Part shown: in pieces, positions 3,406-18,065 of the stretch
How positions within the stretch are numbered: position 1 is the first letter of the stretch
Layout: each line of letters starts with the position of its first letter
Virus record (IMG/VR): IMGVR_UViG_3300034073_001511
Span: 1-28,077 of that record
Length of the DNA stretch: 28,077 bases
Reading direction: 5' to 3' (one strand)
Source of the DNA: a virus
The notes under the pieces: model-generated
Seen by the model: only the letters and a program-made list of their open reading frames with translations
The model's database searches: none
Told to the model about the DNA's origin: nothing
Program-made: the position numbers and the translations under genes

Positions 3406-3759
3406 ATGGCTGGTTTGGCTGGCACATATAACATCATCGCTGATCAGGGCGCCACGTTCGGACGCACGATCACTTGGAACGACGCCAACGGCGACCCGGT
3501 AGACCTGGACGGCTACACGGCCCGGATGCAGGTCCGATCAATTGTGTCGTCGGCTGAGGTGGCGCTCGAGCTCACGACCGAGAACGGTCGAATCGCTCTC
3601 GGCGGTGCTTTGGGAACGATCACGTTGACAGTGCCGGCGACAGCGATGGATGACATTGAAGGCGGGTCATACGCCTATGATTTGGAATTGGTGAACGGGT
3701 CGGATGTGACTCGTTTGTTGATGGGTTCTTTTACGGTGCGGGCTGAGGTGACTCGATGA
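3406..3759 (+). CDS. Beta-rich fibre-associated virion protein (putative)
   Basis: A 117-residue protein, mostly short beta-strand-like segments. The pattern [20 protein letters not shown], then GYTARMQVR, a late YAYDLEL and a closing GSFTV is shared by small phage proteins placed just before tail fibres, resembling the N-terminal domain of baseplate upper (BppU-like) proteins. The ATG at 3406 lies one base after the preceding stop; a longer reading from 3322 would overlap that gene completely and begins with unrelated sequence. It ends in an ATGA overlap with the collagen-like fibre gene, so the two are probably translated together, and it may anchor or chaperone that fibre. The role is inferred. 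Confidence 0.65.
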
Positions 3760-5570
3760 GTTTTCAGGTGAACGATCAGCCACCGAAGGTAACCGTCACC
3801 GAAGAAAACGTCAGCGCTTCTATCTCGTTGTCCGGCCAGGGTCCACAGGGTCCGCAAGGTCCGCAGGGTGCGGCGTCAACCGTTCCCGGTCCGCAGGGTG
3901 CGACCGGCCCTCAGGGCGCTACTGGCGCTCAGGGTGTGCAAGGCCCTCAGGGTGCCACTGGTGCGACCGGCCCGCAGGGACCGGAAGGTATCCAAGGAGC
4001 GACAGGCCCGCAGGGTGCTCAAGGCGCCCAGGGTGCGACCGGTGCACAAGGTGCGACCGGCCCGCAGGGTTCAACGGGACCTCAGGGCGATCAGGGCCCT
4101 CAAGGTATTACTGGTGCGCAAGGCCCTCAGGGTGCGCAAGGTCCGACAGGCCCGCAGGGTTCAGCCGGCCCACAAGGCCCGCAAGGCGAAACTGGCGCCC
4201 AGGGACCGCAGGGTGATACCGGCCCACAGGGTGCAACTGGCCCTCAGGGTGCGCAAGGCGACACCGGCCCGCAAGGCGCTCAGGGTGCGCAAGGCCCACA
4301 AGGCGATACTGGTGCGCAGGGTGCTCAAGGCCCGCAGGGCGATACTGGCCCCCAAGGTGCTATTGGCCCACAAGGGCCGCAAGGTGACACCGGCGCACAG
4401 GGACCGCAGGGCCCGCAAGGTGATCTTGGTCCCCAAGGAGATACAGGCCCGCAAGGCCCACAGGGCGCCCAAGGTGCGACAGGTGCTACCGGCGCTCAAG
4501 GCCCACAAGGTGCGCAAGGAGCCGAGGGTCAGTCAACTTCGTTCTACGACTACAAGATCAAGACGACATTGAACTCCGGTGATCCCGGCTCCGGGTACAT
4601 CATCTACAACAACGCCACTCAAACATCGGCGACACAGATCAATGTCTCCCACATCACCTTCGACAACTTTGATGTTGACATCTTCCTGACGCTGCTTGGC
4701 GTCGGCGATGTACTGGTCATTCAGGATTCGACGGATTCGAACGATTATCAGAAGTGGGAAATTAGCTCGGCGCCGACGGATCAGGCCGGCTACATCGAAT
4801 ACCCCGTCACGCTGCTTGACAGCGGTGGAGATGGCACGACCGGCTTCGCCAACGACCTCGAGGTGCTGTTCGCCATCTCCACCCAAGGCCCGCAGGGTCC
4901 GCAGGGTGCGCAGGGCGCTACCGGCCCTCAGGGTGCCGAAGGCCCGCAAGGCCCGCAGGGCGATACAGGTGCTCAGGGTGCTCAGGGTCCACAGGGCGAT
5001 ACGGGTACTCAGGGTCCTCAAGGCGCTCAGGGCGATACCGGCCCACAAGGCGACATTGGTCCCCAAGGTGCGCAGGGCCCCCAAGGTGATACTGGCGCTC
5101 AGGGTCCGCAAGGCGCACAGGGTGACACCGGCCCGCAGGGTGCCACTGGCCCGCAGGGTGATACTGGTCCTCAGGGTGCTCAGGGCGCCCAGGGTGCTAC
5201 TGGTGCTCAGGGCCCTCAGGGCGATATTGGTGCGCAGGGTGCGACAGGCCCGGCCGGCCCGCAAGGCGACACTGGTCCCCAGGGCGCACAAGGCGCACAA
5301 GGCCCGCAGGGTGCCGCCGGCGCTCAAGGCGAAACAGGCCCACAGGGTGCAACTGGGCCACAGGGACCGGAAGGCCCGCAGGGTGCTACTGGGCCTCAGG
5401 GTGCTGAGGGTCCGCAGGGTGCCACTGGTGCTCAGGGTGATCAAGGTCCGCAGGGTGCCGAGGGGCCGCAAGGTTCACAAGGCCCGCAAGGTGCTCAAGG
5501 TGCGCAGGGTGCACAAGGTCCACAAGGTGCCGATGCTGACATCGGTTTGATTATCGCTCTTGGAGGCTGA
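3756..5570 (+). CDS. Collagen-like fibre protein
   Basis: A 604-residue protein built from Gly-X-Y triplets, mainly GPQ, GAQ, GAT and GDT. Residues 1-28 are a non-collagen head; residues 29-257 are the first collagen tract, with a short break (AASTVP) near 38-43; residues 258-377 are a globular, Asp/Thr-rich insert starting near [10 protein letters not shown]; residues 378-591 are the second tract; the last 13 residues ([13 protein letters not shown]) are a short hydrophobic end. Such tracts form trimeric triple helices in phage tail fibres, with Gln, Thr and charged residues replacing hydroxyproline. The insert could set trimer register or bind a receptor. It is flanked by ATGA coupling upstream and the next virion gene 2 nt downstream. 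Function as an adhesion fibre is strongly suggested; the receptor is unknown. Confidence 0.88.
3840..4526 (+). repeat. Gly-X-Gln collagen tract 1
   Basis: About 229 residues of in-frame 9-base triplet repeats, mostly GGN-CCN/GCN-CAR. Codons alternate between GGT/GGC and CAA/CAG, so the DNA is less uniform than the protein. Confidence 0.9.
4887..5528 (+). repeat. Gly-X-Gln collagen tract 2
   Basis: A second tract of 214 residues with the same triplet types as tract 1, separated from it by 120 residues of ordinary sequence. The similarity between tracts makes in-frame expansion, contraction or recombination between them possible. Confidence 0.9.
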
Positions 5571-7076: not shown

Positions 7077-7892
7077 ATGCAACCGCCCACGTTCTCGATT
7101 ATCACGCCCACCTATAAGACTCCGGCCCATCTTCTGGCCCGAACCTGGGCGAGCCTGAAAGCCCAAACGGTCACTGATTGGGAGTGGGTGGTGTGGGACG
7201 ACACGCCGAACAGTGATCAGGTGTGGCGTCAGTTGTATGGCATGGCAGCCGATGAGCGCTACCGACTCCGAGCATTTCGGGGTCATACCCATTCGGGTCG
7301 GATCGGTGAGGTGAAGCGGAATGCGGCGATGGTCGCCGCCGGCCAAATCATCGTCGAGCTTGACCACGACGACGAACTGACACCGGATTGTTTGGCCGAA
7401 CTTGAGCAAGCGTTCGCCGATCCTGAGGTCGGTTTCGCCTATTCGGACTGGTGCGAGATTCTGCCCGACGGCCAATCCGGCCGCTACCCGAAAGGATGGG
7501 CTTTCGGGTATGGCGCCGACTACTGGTCTGACCAGTACGGTTGCTGGGTGATGTCAGCCCCGCCGGCCAACGAAATCACCATGAACCACATTGTGTCGGC
7601 ACCGAACCATGTGCGAGCGTGGCGAGCCGATATCTACCGGCAACTCAACGGACACGACTCAAGCTTCCCGGTGGCCGACGATTACGAATTGTGTGTGCGT
7701 ACTTTCCTGGCAACCAGGATGGTTCACATACCTAAAATGCTGTATCGCCAGCATATTGGGCCGATGACCGCTCAACGGACCCGAAATCAGCAAATACAGA
7801 CCTTGGTGGCCGACATTTCGGCCCGATACGCAACCCAAATTCACGCTAGATGTGTCGAATTAGGGTTAGAAACCCGAGAAACAGGCTTATGA
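7077..7892 (+). CDS. Glycosyltransferase family 2
   Basis: A 271-residue GT-A-fold glycosyltransferase without membrane segments. FSIITPTYK (6-14) is the first strand of GT2 enzymes, VVWDDTP (38-44) the nucleotide-binding acidic pair, RNAAM followed by VELDHDDEL (93-101) carries the metal-binding DxD as Asp96-His-Asp98, and ADDYELCVRTF fits the acceptor-side acidic region. Such enzymes transfer a sugar from a nucleotide-sugar donor to an acceptor. Placed between fibre genes and the portal in a late operon, it may modify virion proteins, as reported for some mycobacteriophages; host-surface modification is the alternative. Composition returns to the high-GC phage average here, unlike the preceding three genes. 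Confidence 0.88.
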   Translation: MQPPTFSIITPTYKTPAHLLARTWASLKAQTVTDWEWVVWDDTPNSDQVWRQLYGMAADERYRLRAFRGHTHSGRIGEVKRNAAMVAAGQIIVELDHDDELTPDCLAELEQAFADPEVGFAYSDWCEILPDGQSGRYPKGWAFGYGADYWSDQYGCWVMSAPPANEITMNHIVSAPNHVRAWRADIYRQLNGHDSSFPVADDYELCVRTFLATRMVHIPKMLYRQHIGPMTAQRTRNQQIQTLVADISARYATQIHARCVELGLETRETGL

Positions 7893-12176: not shown

Positions 12177-12413
12177 ATGAAACTTGTATACGCCACCAAC
12201 ACCTGCTCCACCAGAAACCCCAACACTGGCCTCATTGTCCGGCTGGTTGAATCGGAGCCTTGGGCCGCTGACGATCCTTTCGTCATAGCACGCCCTGAGT
12301 TGTTCTCTAACGAGCCGAACAAGGTTCGACGTACTACACCAGCCCCCGCCCCCGTTGAAGCCGCCACAAAGGCTCCTGGGACCAAGAAGGCGGTGAAGCG
12401 TGAAGACTGGTGA
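12177..12413 (+). CDS. Small head-region protein, hypothetical
   Basis: A 78-residue protein right after the capsid gene. The core LIVRLVESEPWAADDPFVIA followed by RPELFS is shared by short proteins found at this place in actinophage genomes; the last 30 residues are Pro/Ala/Lys-rich and likely disordered. AAGGAGG about 9 nt upstream decides the ATG at 12177. It overlaps the next gene by 14 nt. A capsid accessory or connector-adjacent role is only inferred. Confidence 0.65.
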   Translation: MKLVYATNTCSTRNPNTGLIVRLVESEPWAADDPFVIARPELFSNEPNKVRRTTPAPAPVEAATKAPGTKKAVKREDW

Positions 12414-13527
12414 CACCCTTTTCGGCTATCTGCACCCTCACGACCTCGCCGCCTCATTCCACAAAAGCCTGATCAACCTGGTCGGCTGGGACATGGGCCA
12501 CGACCACCGACTGTCCGGCTGGGCTTCCGTCAAATGCGCCTCCGGCGGCATCCCCGAAGGCCGAAACCAACTGGTCGCCCAGTTCCTCGCTTCCGAATGC
12601 GACTGGCTGTTCATGGTCGACGCCGACATGGGTTTCGAACCCTGCGCCCTCGACCAGCTCCTATCCGTCGCCCACCCGGAGGATCGGCCGATCGTCGGTG
12701 GTTTGTGTTTCGCTCAGCGTGAAGCGAACGAAGACGGGATGGGCGGTTACCGCTGTATCCCTCGAGCCACCATCTTCGATTGGATGGAACACGCTGACGG
12801 CCACTACCGCTTCACCGGCCGAGCCCACTACCCGGCCAACACTCTCGTCCGATGCGCCGCTACTGGCGGGGCATTCCTCGTGATTCACCGTTCGGTGTGT
12901 GAGAAAATTAGGGAAGCACACGGCGACCGTTGGTTTGATCGAATTCGTGGCACCGACGGCGCCCTCATGGGTGAAGACATCTCGTTTTTCGCCCGCACCC
13001 AAGCCCTCGGAATCCCGTGCTACGTCCACACTGGGATTCGAACCACCCACCAAAAAAACCTGTGGCTTGGCGAAACCGACTTCCTGCATTCGTTCCTACC
13101 GCCGGCCGCCACCCAAGAATTCGATGTCTATCTCACCGATGAAGGCGAACCAGGCGACGATTGGGTGAACACCCTCAAAGCCACAACCGGCTGGTGCGGC
13201 GACATCTTCGATAACCCGATGCTGTCAAGCCGTTTAGGGCATTCCCCGTGGATTCTGATCACCGAATCCGACGCCCGTTTCCGACCGGCCTGGTATGACC
13301 ACGCCCTCCATAACGCCCGACTTTACGACCGGCCAGTGATCGGCCTGAATGATTGTCACACGCCGGCAATTGGTCGTGGCGAGGATGCCCGGTCGGTGCT
13401 GGTAACTCGGGCATGGCTCGAGGAGCATGATCTAATGTCGGTTGCTGACATAGTGAAAACCGCTCAGAAAAAGAATCAGTTTCTTGCCTCGCCAGCCTCC
13501 GAGGTTGCGCAGGCACCGAAGAAGTAG
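12400..13527 (+). CDS. Bipartite GT-A glycosyltransferase
   Basis: A 375-residue protein without membrane segments. Residues 40-235 look like one GT-A domain: GIPEGRNQLVAQFLASECDW, the metal-binding DxD at Asp74-Ala-Asp76 in MVDADMGFEP, GGAFLVIHR and GEDISFFARTQALG (191-204). Residues 240-345 look like a second, shorter domain: PWILITESDARFRPAWY (284-299, which resembles a second acidic sugar-nucleotide site), VIGLNDCHTPAIG and LVTRAWLEEHD. The tail is Lys/Ala-rich. The start is GTG at 12400, 14 nt inside the previous gene. Between capsid and connector genes it may decorate the capsid or tail; donor and acceptor are unknown. Confidence 0.75.
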   Translation: MKTGDTLFGYLHPHDLAASFHKSLINLVGWDMGHDHRLSGWASVKCASGGIPEGRNQLVAQFLASECDWLFMVDADMGFEPCALDQLLSVAHPEDRPIVGGLCFAQREANEDGMGGYRCIPRATIFDWMEHADGHYRFTGRAHYPANTLVRCAATGGAFLVIHRSVCEKIREAHGDRWFDRIRGTDGALMGEDISFFARTQALGIPCYVHTGIRTTHQKNLWLGETDFLHSFLPPAATQEFDVYLTDEGEPGDDWVNTLKATTGWCGDIFDNPMLSSRLGHSPWILITESDARFRPAWYDHALHNARLYDRPVIGLNDCHTPAIGRGEDARSVLVTRAWLEEHDLMSVADIVKTAQKKNQFLASPASEVAQAPKK

Positions 13528-14727: not shown

Positions 14728-15135
14728 ATGGCCCGCCTCGTATTCACCAAGCCTTCGATCACGATCAACTCCGTTGATCTGACCGACCGTATCGCTCAGG
14801 TCGCCATCGACATGAGTTTCGCTGAAGTCACCACCACCGCCTTCGGTGACTCTGCCGTGACCCGTGTCGCCGGCCTCGGCGACCACTCCGTTTCGCTGTC
14901 CTTCCACCAGGATTTCGCTGCTGGCGAAGTGGAAGCCACGATCTACCCGCTGCTCGGCACCACCACGACCGTTGTGGTCAAGCCGGTCAACACGACCACC
15001 AGCACCGACAACCCGTCGTACACGTTCACCGCTCTGGTGAACTCGTGGGCGCCGATTTCCGGCTCGGTTGGCGATCTTCTGACCGCCGATGTCACCTGGC
15101 CGGTTTCGGGCATCGTCAACAAGACCACTTCCTGA
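14728..15135 (+). CDS. Major tail tube protein
   Basis: A 135-residue beta-rich protein: ITINSVDLTDRIAQVAIDMS, then TTTAFGDSAVTRVAGLGDHS and SLSFHQDFAAGEVEATIYPL, then NPSYTFTALVNSWAPISGSV and ADVTWPVSG. This is the pattern of small siphophage tube proteins, which stack as hexameric rings around the tape measure. An upstream GAGGAGCAA supports the ATG. Position before the chaperone pair is standard. Confidence 0.88.
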   Translation: MARLVFTKPSITINSVDLTDRIAQVAIDMSFAEVTTTAFGDSAVTRVAGLGDHSVSLSFHQDFAAGEVEATIYPLLGTTTTVVVKPVNTTTSTDNPSYTFTALVNSWAPISGSVGDLLTADVTWPVSGIVNKTTS

Positions 15136-15152: not shown

Positions 15153-15428
15153 ATGATCGGTGCAAACCTACGCATCACCCTCGCCGAAGAAACCTTCGTC
15201 GCCCCCATCACACCTCGAGTAGCTATCGACTTTGAACGCCATTTCAAAATGGGGCTCGTCAAAGCGCTGGCAAACGAACAGAAGATGGAACATATGTTTT
15301 GGTTGGGCTGGGCTTCAGTCAAAGCCACGGGTCGAGTGGTCAAACCGTTCGACTCGTGGCTTGACGAAGTACACAACGTCCAATTCATCGGCGCTGAAAC
15401 CGACGAGGCATTTGCGGGAAAAGAATAA
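15153..15428 (+). CDS. Tail assembly chaperone, G-like (frame 0 product)
   Basis: A 91-residue protein, the ordinary reading of the chaperone gene. It contains VAIDFERHFKMGLVKALA and MFWLGWASVKATGRVVKPFD, typical of the small chaperones that coat the tape measure before tube polymerisation. TAAGGAG is upstream of the ATG. The stop TAA at 15426-15428 falls just after the slippery heptamer at 15416-15422. Confidence 0.85.
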   Translation: MIGANLRITLAEETFVAPITPRVAIDFERHFKMGLVKALANEQKMEHMFWLGWASVKATGRVVKPFDSWLDEVHNVQFIGAETDEAFAGKE

Positions 15429-15574
15429 ACGATACCTATCTCGGCGTAATCGCCGCCATTTCCGTCGAGACAGGTATTAGCCCAACTGCCCTGCTGGATT
15501 GCCCACCTGAACTGTTCAATGCCATCATCAACTACATGAGGCAACGAGCGGCCAAACTGAACGAGCGGAAATAA
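15153..15574 (+). CDS. Tail assembly chaperone, GT-like (-1 frameshift product)
   Basis: A joined reading: frame 0 from 15153 through AAA at 15420-15422, then a -1 slip and continued reading from 15422 to the stop at 15572-15574, about 140 residues. The added 50 residues begin RINDTYLGVIAAISVETGI and include ALLDCPPELFNAIINYMRQ, a match to the helical C-terminal part of fused chaperones. No start codon opens this second frame before 15537, so a frameshift is the only way to express it. It ends in a TAATG overlap with the next gene. Both products together are needed for tail assembly in lambda-like siphophages. Confidence 0.88.
15416..15478 (+). promoter_or_regulatory. Programmed -1 frameshift signal
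   Basis: The heptamer GGGAAAA (15416-15422) is read G-GGA-AAA in frame 0, the canonical X-XXY-YYZ form. After an 8-nt spacer, GATACCTATCTCGGCG (15431-15446) pairs with CGTCGAGACAGGTATT (15463-15478) as a 16-bp stem with 13 Watson-Crick pairs, two G-U pairs and one A-C mismatch, around a 16-nt loop. A smaller hairpin CGGCG-TAAT-CGCCG (15442-15455) overlaps it and could compete. Confidence 0.85.
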
Positions 15575-15954
15575 TGCAGGATGTCACTTTCAGGGTCGAA
15601 GGGCTCAACAAACTGTTGAGAGCTCTTGAGAAACTGGATGACGAAGCAGCCGCTAATTTCAAGGCCGCTGGTGTTTGGGCAGGTCAAGAGGTCGCCAAAA
15701 CGGCTCGGACGATTGTCCCGGTTAGGTCGGGACGTTTGAGAGACACCATCAAAGGTGCTTCGACTCGTCGTGGTGCTCGAGTGAACGCCGGCCGAAATTC
15801 GGTGCCGTATGCTGGGCCGATCCATTTCGGTTGGGGTCGGCGCAATATTTTCCCGCAACCATTCTTGTATCAGGCGGCCGACCGACGGGCGAACGACGTG
15901 GTCGATCAGTATTTGGCGCAGGTATATGACGTTTGGAATAGGAACGTGACCTAA
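15574..15954 (+). CDS. HK97 gp10-like tail completion protein
   Basis: A 126-residue protein: VEGLNKLLRALEKLDDEAAA, then AKTARTIVPVRSGRLRDTIK, the hallmark of the HK97 gp10 family (head-tail completion or minor tail component), then PYAGPIHFGWGRRNIFPQPF before a helical end. It starts in the TAATG overlap with the chaperone frame and overlaps the tape measure by one base. The family usually sits between connector and tail terminator; here it follows the chaperones, which is less common. Confidence 0.85.
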   Translation: MQDVTFRVEGLNKLLRALEKLDDEAAANFKAAGVWAGQEVAKTARTIVPVRSGRLRDTIKGASTRRGARVNAGRNSVPYAGPIHFGWGRRNIFPQPFLYQAADRRANDVVDQYLAQVYDVWNRNVT

Positions 15955-18065
15955 TGGCTTCGAAAAAAGCGTCTATCTCGATTGCGATTATCGCCGACGC
16001 TGCGAAAGCCCAGGCCGGTTTCAAAGAAGCCGAGAAAGCGGCCGGCTCGTTCGGTCAGCAGATGGGCGGCCTCACCAAAACGATCGCCGCTACCTTCGCC
16101 ACCAAAGCGATCACCGATTTCGCTAAATCGTCGATCAACGCCGCCTCCGATCTTGGTGAGTCAATCAACGCTGTCCAGGTGACTTTCGGTCAGGCAGCCG
16201 ACGGCATTCTTGCCTTCGGAGAAACAGCCTCCAAGACTGTCGGCCTATCGGCCCAGGATTTCAACTCGTTCGCTGTTCAATTCGCCGGATTCACCAAGCA
16301 GATCGCTGGCGATCAGGGCGATATTGTCCAGGTCACTGAGGATTTGACGACTCGTATCGCCGACTTTGCGTCGGTGATGAACCTGGATATTCCGCAGGCG
16401 GCGCAGGTGTTCCAGTCGTCGCTTGCCGGTCAGACGGAGCCGATCCGACGGTTCGGTATCGACCTTTCGGCCGCCGCCGTCGCCGCCTTCGCCGTCGAGC
16501 AAGGGATTTCGGAGTCGGCGGCCACGATGACGGAGGCCGAGAAGGTTCAGGCCCGTTATCAGTTGTTGATGCAGGAAACCGCCAAGGCGGCCGGCGACTT
16601 TGCTAACACCTCGGACAGTCTTGCGAATAGTCAGCGTATTCTTCAGGCTGATTTCAAGAATATGCAGGCCGAGCTCGGTCAGGCCCTTTTGCCTGTCATG
16701 GAGCAATTGGTCAGTATCGCCAAAATCGCTGTCGATGCCTTTATGGCTTTGCCGGAGCCGTTGCAGAAGATCGTCACTTTGGCCGCTGTTCTCGGTGGCG
16801 GTATGGCGTCGGCTTCTCGAGCCTTGCAGGGTTTCGGATTGGCGGCCAAGACAGCCAATATTGCGGTCGGCGCCCTTGGTGGCGTCATGCTTCTCGCCAG
16901 CGTCCATGCCCAGCAAGCGGCCGAAGATGCAGCGAAGTTCCAAGATGCTATGGATGGCCTAACTAGGGCCAGCGATGAAAACGCCAAGATGCAGTTGGGT
17001 GCGGCCGCTGCGGCAGCAATCTTCGCCGGTGAATTTGGAAACGCCGAGCAATTCGTAGCGAAGTTGGCTGAAACGTCGATCGGCATGACCGAGCGTTTGC
17101 GGGACATGAACGCTATCCAAGAGCTTTTCGGTCTGACCACCGAAGAAGTGAATGGCATCATCGACGAACAGATCGCCGGTTTTCAGCAGGCTGAGGCTGA
17201 TGCAGAGCGCACTTCGGCGGCTGTTGATGGGTTGACGGTTGCCGAACAGGAAGCCGCAGAGGCTACGGAAGCACAAAATCAGGCGTTGAAAGAGCAGGAA
17301 GACGCCCTCAACGCTGTTCTAACGGCGACATTGGCTCAGTTCAATGCGGCGCTCGCCTATGAATCGCAGACCTGGCGTACCACCGACGCCATTGACGCCT
17401 ACACGCAGGCACAGTTGGATGCGTTCACTGGTGCGACTCAGGGTGAGGAGGCAGCTCGAGCAATTGCCGAGGCGCAGAACGATGCAGCGTCGGCCGCTCT
17501 TAGTCAGGCGGCGGCGGCGGCCAAATTGGCTGAAGAACAGGCAGCGATGCGGGGCGAAACGCTCACCGCTGCCGAGGCCGCTCAAATTCAGATTGATGAA
17601 TTGAACCGGGTGGCCCAAACGCTTGATCCGGCTAGCCCTCTACGCCAACAGCTTGAGGGTTATGTCCGGCAACTGGGCAATATCCCGAGGGATGTTGAGA
17701 CTGAACTTCGAGTTAGCGTCAACGCCTGGTTGAACTCGATGCAAGGTGGCGGTGGTGCTGGTGGTGGCCGGTTGACGTTCCGAGCTCAAGGCGGGCCGGT
17801 GTCCCCGACGCTCGGACCATACATCGTGGGTGAGGAAGGCCCCGAGGTGTTTATTCCGGGTCAGACTGGGATGATTCTGCCGAACACGGCTTTGATTGAT
17901 GCGATGGCGGCGAGGCCGACAGCGGCCGGCGGGGTCGCAGCCCCCACCATCGTCGTGAACGTGGCCGGGTCAGTGACCAGTGAGCGGGATTTGGTTGAAA
18001 GTATCCGGCGTGGTTTGGTGAATTCTCAGCGGAACGGTTCACCCCTGATCTACAGCAACATATGA
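15954..18065 (+). CDS. Tape measure protein
   Basis: A 703-residue protein. The N-terminus carries the helical, Ala-rich pattern of tape measures (ADAAKAQAGFKEAEKAAGSF onward, with TKAITDFAKSSINAASDLGE). Hydrophobic stretches near residues 273-293 and 302-319 match the membrane-active centre of the family. A long Ala/Glu/Gln coiled-coil region follows, about 410-560. The end has PYIVGEEGPEVFIPGQTGMI, a common tape-measure C-terminal motif. Using about 0.15 nm per residue, the tail would be near 100 nm. There is no peptidase or lysozyme domain. It ends in an ATGA overlap with the minor tail gene. Confidence 0.9.
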   Translation: MASKKASISIAIIADAAKAQAGFKEAEKAAGSFGQQMGGLTKTIAATFATKAITDFAKSSINAASDLGESINAVQVTFGQAADGILAFGETASKTVGLSAQDFNSFAVQFAGFTKQIAGDQGDIVQVTEDLTTRIADFASVMNLDIPQAAQVFQSSLAGQTEPIRRFGIDLSAAAVAAFAVEQGISESAATMTEAEKVQARYQLLMQETAKAAGDFANTSDSLANSQRILQADFKNMQAELGQALLPVMEQLVSIAKIAVDAFMALPEPLQKIVTLAAVLGGGMASASRALQGFGLAAKTANIAVGALGGVMLLASVHAQQAAEDAAKFQDAMDGLTRASDENAKMQLGAAAAAAIFAGEFGNAEQFVAKLAETSIGMTERLRDMNAIQELFGLTTEEVNGIIDEQIAGFQQAEADAERTSAAVDGLTVAEQEAAEATEAQNQALKEQEDALNAVLTATLAQFNAALAYESQTWRTTDAIDAYTQAQLDAFTGATQGEEAARAIAEAQNDAASAALSQAAAAAKLAEEQAAMRGETLTAAEAAQIQIDELNRVAQTLDPASPLRQQLEGYVRQLGNIPRDVETELRVSVNAWLNSMQGGGGAGGGRLTFRAQGGPVSPTLGPYIVGEEGPEVFIPGQTGMILPNTALIDAMAARPTAAGGVAAPTIVVNVAGSVTSERDLVESIRRGLVNSQRNGSPLIYSNI

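Follow-up and report, generated by a model that had tools for sequence, protein, structure and literature searches.

A predicted -1 frameshift signal in the putative tail assembly chaperone gene of an uncultured phage, and variation of recoding signals among its relatives

In phage lambda, the tail assembly chaperone is made as a short form, gpG, and as a form extended in the -1 frame, gpGT, and the slip heptamer is GGGAAAG. Conservation of this -1 frameshift among long-tailed phages was reported by Xu, Hendrix and Duda (2004, as cited in PMC5009743). The locus described here resembles that of lambda in its gene order, after the major tail protein gene and before the tape measure gene, in its predicted short and -1 extended forms, and in a heptamer of the GGG-AAA type. 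Unlike lambda, it has a predicted downstream stem and a gp10-like gene between chaperone and tape measure, and no sequence relation between the two was detected. The -1 frameshifts in the head and tail genes of Lactobacillus phage A2 likewise concern phage structural genes and have a downstream RNA structure as stimulator, but, in the account cited in PMC5009743, they affect major virion proteins rather than a chaperone. The -1 signals of IS911, IS3 and dnaX (PMC4066793, PMC5009743) belong to other genes, yet also combine a heptamer or tetramer with a hairpin at 5-8 nt and sometimes with a Shine-Dalgarno (SD)-like element, the last being weakly supported in the family studied here. The tail chaperone frameshifts of actinobacteriophages (the SEA-PHAGES set used by PRFect, PMC10885494) are similar in gene role and signal type, and the portal and terminase relatives of our virus are mainly actinobacterial; in contrast, neither its predicted fusion nor two queries from other sub-families gave a tblastn match in 50,697 phage records. 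The frameshift-made tail chaperone is a well-known phage principle, and this locus very likely adds another case.

The window, that is, the whole stretch of DNA analysed, is the metagenome-derived IMG/VR virus record IMGVR_UViG_3300034073_001511, of 28,077 nt. Head-tail adaptor, tail terminator and major tail protein genes lie 5' of the putative chaperone gene, and a gp10/Neck1-like gene followed by the tape measure gene lies 3' of it, so that a single gene intervenes between chaperone and tape measure. The features of this region are the following:

14728..15135, plus strand: major tail protein gene (phrog_4574 major tail protein, E 6.5e-26)
15153..15428, plus strand: putative short tail assembly chaperone gene (G part), zero frame, 91 aa (ORF; 68-member alignment; AlphaFold2 model, mean pLDDT 85.8; major tail protein homologue directly upstream in 91/91 relatives)
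15405..15408, plus strand: possible SD-like GAGG, separated from the heptamer by 7 nt; weak candidate for a stimulator (family-wide enrichment of SD-like 4-mers)
15416..15422, plus strand: slippery heptamer G_GGA_AAA (sequence and phase; common to L002-L004, L033, L034 and L121 only)
15422..15574, plus strand: -1 frame T part, 50 residues, RINDTYLGV...KLNERK, with TAA at 15572-15574 (translation; T-domain alignment of 49 members; substitution periodicity moving to the -1 frame)
15423..15430, plus strand: 8-nt spacer containing the zero-frame stop TAA (15426-15428) (sequence)
15431..15478, plus strand: predicted stem of 15 bp (7 bp and 8 bp on the two sides of one A.C mismatch) closing a 16-nt loop; candidate for a stimulator, although this exact stem is not conserved (z -3.65; synonymous-null p 0.005; pair probabilities)
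15574..15954, plus strand: HK97-gp10-like/Neck1 gene, its start codon overlapping the T stop (phrog_5, E 8.5e-17; PF04883 above its cut-off)
15954..18065, plus strand: tape measure protein gene (phrog_1535, E 2.5e-26)

Because the portal relatives are mostly from actinobacterial genomes (one is a Gemmatimonadaceae MAG) and the terminase relatives are found in phages of Actinomycetota, the window virus likely has an actinobacterial host. Elsewhere in the window, a 604-aa collagen-like protein with GPQGAQG repeats is encoded between the terminase and portal genes (3756-5570), and two genes judged by eye to be glycosyltransferase-like (7077-7892 and 12400-13527) lie within the head gene region.

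The zero-frame codons at the slip site read GCG GGA AAA GAA TAA, which sets the phase as G_GGA_AAA, correct as stated in the initial annotation, and leaves 3 nt between the heptamer and the zero-frame stop. This motif is a member of the V_VV.A_AA.R group, on which E. coli ribosomes slip efficiently (PMC4066793). The -1 frame is open from 15398, and the heptamer lies inside the overlap of the two frames (15398-15428). Read through the slip, the product would have 140 aa, its -1 part being RINDTYLGVIAAISVETGISPTALLDCPPELFNAIINYMRQRAAKLNERK. The stop of this frame overlaps the ATG at 15574 (TAATG, 15572-15576), and the 50 residues previously read up to the TAATG junction agree with our translation. 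In the family, SD-like 4-mers occur moderately more often than expected at 8-20 nt upstream of the slip site (43/96 loci, against 32.8 +/- 3.5 in a synonymous null). Such a 4-mer is missing from the nearest relatives L033 and L121, and its role as a stimulator is suggestive only.

Together with the window itself, IMG/VR scans yielded 178 loci, with 165 distinct sequences from many metagenomes; one locus (L153), in which the frame is broken before the slip region, was set aside. Among the 177 usable loci, 174 have an in-phase slip site followed by a T domain conserved in the -1 frame, and the other three conserve it in the +1 frame. Nearly all loci show a zero-frame stop and then a conserved -1-frame extension of 39-52 residues, and the T-domain consensus, taken from the 49-member alignment, is xRDSxTxLVAxxAVETGIAPxxLLDxP. 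In 17 pairs of relatives, differences before the slip site concentrate at the third position of zero-frame codons (249, against 152 and 148 at the other positions), whereas after the slip site they concentrate at the third position of the -1 frame (280, against 83 and 40). A major tail protein homologue lies upstream at all 91 loci whose sequence reaches far enough, and the tape measure gene is downstream of the chaperone in the nearest relatives too. Since both frames, the third-position switch and the gene order are conserved as predicted, a pattern that error or decay does not predict, these data argue for a functional frameshift gene. The T domain in its -1 frame, the switch at the slip site and the upstream major tail protein thus uphold the earlier proposal of a programmed -1 frameshift that makes a tail chaperone, and we consider it highly probable that this shift provides the short (G) and extended (GT) forms.

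The assignment as a chaperone follows from gene position and from the G/GT architecture, a short form and a putative frameshift-extended form being conserved across the relatives. In a BFVD fold search, the model of the G part has matches among unnamed proteins from uncultured phages, with E values as low as 6e-11, and named tail assembly chaperones match weakly, one of them at probability 0.99, TM 0.58 and E 0.078. A PDB fold search with the chaperone model returned nothing meaningful, and Pfam and PHROG searches gave no confident chaperone family match for either part. Cultured phages showed neither a DNA nor a protein match to the chaperone. No relatives were found by peptide pattern in bacterial genomes, nor in eight prophage-like loci reached through the portal. 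At a Streptomyces locus (L267), a gp10-like ORF directly follows the major tail protein gene, and no relative of the window's chaperone was detected there.

We infer from these observations the following course of translation. The majority of ribosomes would stop at TAA 15426 and release the 91-aa G protein. A fraction would slip at G_GGA_AAA, where the P-site tRNA re-pairs with GGG instead of GGA and the A-site lysyl-tRNA leaves one AAA for another, and would then read the -1 frame to give the 140-aa GT fusion. Folded RNA just downstream would make ribosomes pause and slip more often; in this virus, the RNA in question is most probably the 15431-15478 stem. If the two parts act as in lambda gpG/gpGT, the tape measure protein may be the partner of the G part and the major tail protein that of the T part.

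In the predicted stem, 15431-15437 pairs with 15472-15478 and 15439-15446 with 15463-15470. The 16 bp with one mismatch, 8 nt after the heptamer, of the initial annotation correspond to 15 pairs, two of them G-U, plus the A.C mismatch, and the spacer is as described. The 8-nt spacing fits the 5-8 nt expected for a -1 stimulatory structure. The stem has a minimum free energy of -19.8 kcal/mol and pair probabilities of 0.85-0.99 in context; its z of -3.65 refers to the 60 nt after the heptamer, compared with dinucleotide shuffles. An overlapping small hairpin (15442-15455), which had been suggested to tune efficiency, folds at -7.5 kcal/mol when alone, but it cannot coexist with the long stem and, in context, its probability is about 0.01, so that this suggestion finds no support. 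An Rfam search gave no match.

It is nevertheless conceivable that frameshifting is real while this stem is incidental, slippage depending on G_GGA_AAA, the nearby stop codon and perhaps the upstream SD-like GAGG. Such a reading draws on the moderate enrichment of SD-like 4-mers and on the nearest relatives, among which the window's stem shows zero double compensatory changes and no excess of pairing (66.7% of cells paired, against 67.1% in shuffles). It is also in keeping with the lack of significant structure under the synonymous null in some relatives, such as L034, L066 and L008. However, only 0.5% of synonymous recodings fold as strongly as the window's stem, whose position coincides exactly with that of the family-wide structure. 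Moreover, the nearest relatives also have a hairpin there: L002, L033, L034 and L121 share one, with energies of -7.4 to -13.8 kcal/mol, that begins 5 nt past the heptamer and carries three double changes, a number that 14 of 500 shuffles reach. The window is without this hairpin (-1.2 kcal/mol at that place), its 5' arm pairing instead with a more distant partner to form the 15431-15478 stem. On balance, an incidental stem appears rather unlikely. A stimulatory stem is the reading that we keep, as a plausible prediction specific to the window, and it seems that in this clade the structural role has been kept while the structure itself was replaced.

RNA structure 3' of the slip site is general in the family. 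In 63 non-redundant loci, folding of 50-nt windows is strongest for start points 0-20 nt past the slip site, with a mean z of -1.53 +/- 0.22 at 0 nt and values between 0 and -0.7 at most other positions. Under a synonymous-codon null, the mean z is -1.30 downstream of the slip site and -0.70 in a control stretch of the T domain, and 24/63 loci reach p 0.05 or less at the slip site, against 13/63 in the control stretch. Two other clades have covarying stems, with 15 cells changed on both sides in one (6.0 in shuffles) and 13 in another (2.0 in shuffles); in each, 0/500 shuffles were as high, a control that is inflated by relatedness, and sliding the partner destroys the signal. These two strong stems, of 18 bp (that of L041) and 11 bp, lie just 3' of the slip site (A5 and A6 alignments; L041 2251-2325, L103 4249-4326).

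The slip site itself is variable. The initial annotation had named the conservation of heptamer and stem in relatives as a test. A slip site is indeed kept in the right place and phase, but GGGAAAA occurs at only 7 of the 178 loci, all in the window's small clade, and the exact 15-bp stem is absent from the four nearest relatives. Hence, what had been described as a complete cassette stands in its function and in the types of its elements, whereas the stem as drawn is confined to the window. Most relatives carry CCCTTTN (CCCTTTA 47, CCCTTTG 33, CCCTTTC 9). AAATTTC is present at 24 loci, most of which also hold an overlapping CCCAAAT one codon upstream, and CCCAAAT and CCCAAAA account for 15 and 2 loci, respectively. 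Tetramer-type sites comprise U_UUC (25), C_CCU with a non-slippery A codon (7) and C_CCY followed by UAG (3). In E. coli, C_CC.U, C_CC.C and U_UU.C belong to the tetramers on which slippage occurs, given a stimulator (PMC4066793). Because A-site slippage on C_CC.U or U_UU.C (PMC4066793) explains several P-site-only sites equally well, we do not claim a requirement for the stop codon. In L212 and its relatives, which belong to the clade of L103, the slip site is seemingly shifted by one codon, with C_CCA_AAU, an overlapping A_AAU_UUC and then a U_UUC tetramer.

On a tree of 96 representatives, the motif labels need 27 changes, an uncertain count given the short alignment and the 39 of 93 inner branches that are unresolved. 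The GGGAAAA loci cluster together (support 89), and the starred group that contains them (97) has CCCTTTA in its remaining members; as the tree is unrooted, the direction of motif change is inferred. The three loci with the T domain in the +1 frame (L156, locus 1501-1763; L157; L163) group with the three C_CCY_UAG loci L040, L053 and L069 (support 94). Their zero frame reads CCT CTT TGA in L156 and L157 and CCT CTT CGA TAA in L163, and the conserved domain continues in the +1 frame. The prfB gene has CUU_UGA at its classical +1 shift. In different phages, both -1 and +1 shifts have been described for tail genes (PMC5009743), and here both directions appear to occur within one homologous chaperone family. 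A trade-off between motif efficiency and stem strength was considered and rejected, for lack of support, as structure z shows no difference between motifs rated efficient and inefficient in E. coli (p 0.82; 7 independent pairs on starred branches). We favor, with some reservation, the view that the two-domain product persisted in this family although its frameshift signal was remade many times over. Heptamers would have changed among CCCTTTN, GGGAAAA, CCCAAAT and AAATTTC, and some clades would have moved to tetramers (C_CCU, U_UUC). The C_CCY_UAG clade may have given rise to, or share its origin with, the +1 members (CUU_UGA, CUU_CGA), and hairpins would have been replaced by unrelated ones, as in the window.

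Other ways of making a second product were also weighed. Re-initiation or internal initiation could yield T as a separate protein, given that the zero-frame stop falls inside the T frame and that coupled starts are common in phages. However, the first ATG, GTG or TTG of this frame, and its sole usual start, is the ATG at 15536, after the conserved T core, and a separate T would leave the conserved in-phase slip motif unexplained; we regard it as very improbable. The absence of an earlier usual start had been noted before, with the limit placed at 15537 rather than 15536. Slippage of the polymerase instead of the ribosome has even less in its favor: GGGAAAA does hold a short homopolymer run, but four A are few for polymerase slippage, and relatives use CCCTTTN, CCCAAAT and C_CCY_UAG with the codon phase kept. 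A sequencing or assembly error, or a decayed gene, might be suspected in a metagenome-derived record, but is refuted in practice by the same architecture in 165 distinct sequences from many metagenomes and by purifying selection in both frames, with the break between them at a slip motif.

Programmed ribosomal frameshifting is therefore the reading that we retain, and with it the cassette extends an established principle to a family of putative chaperones for which the searches of cultured phage records, Pfam and PHROGs gave no match. What goes beyond routine are the naturally occurring alternatives for slip motif and hairpin in this family, and its change of shift direction. Its variants differ in heptamer, tetramer, stem and shift direction, and presumably all need a workable ratio of G to GT. 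The family could thus be used to study the evolutionary exchange of recoding signals and to find which of their features are enough for the ribosomes of bacteria other than E. coli.
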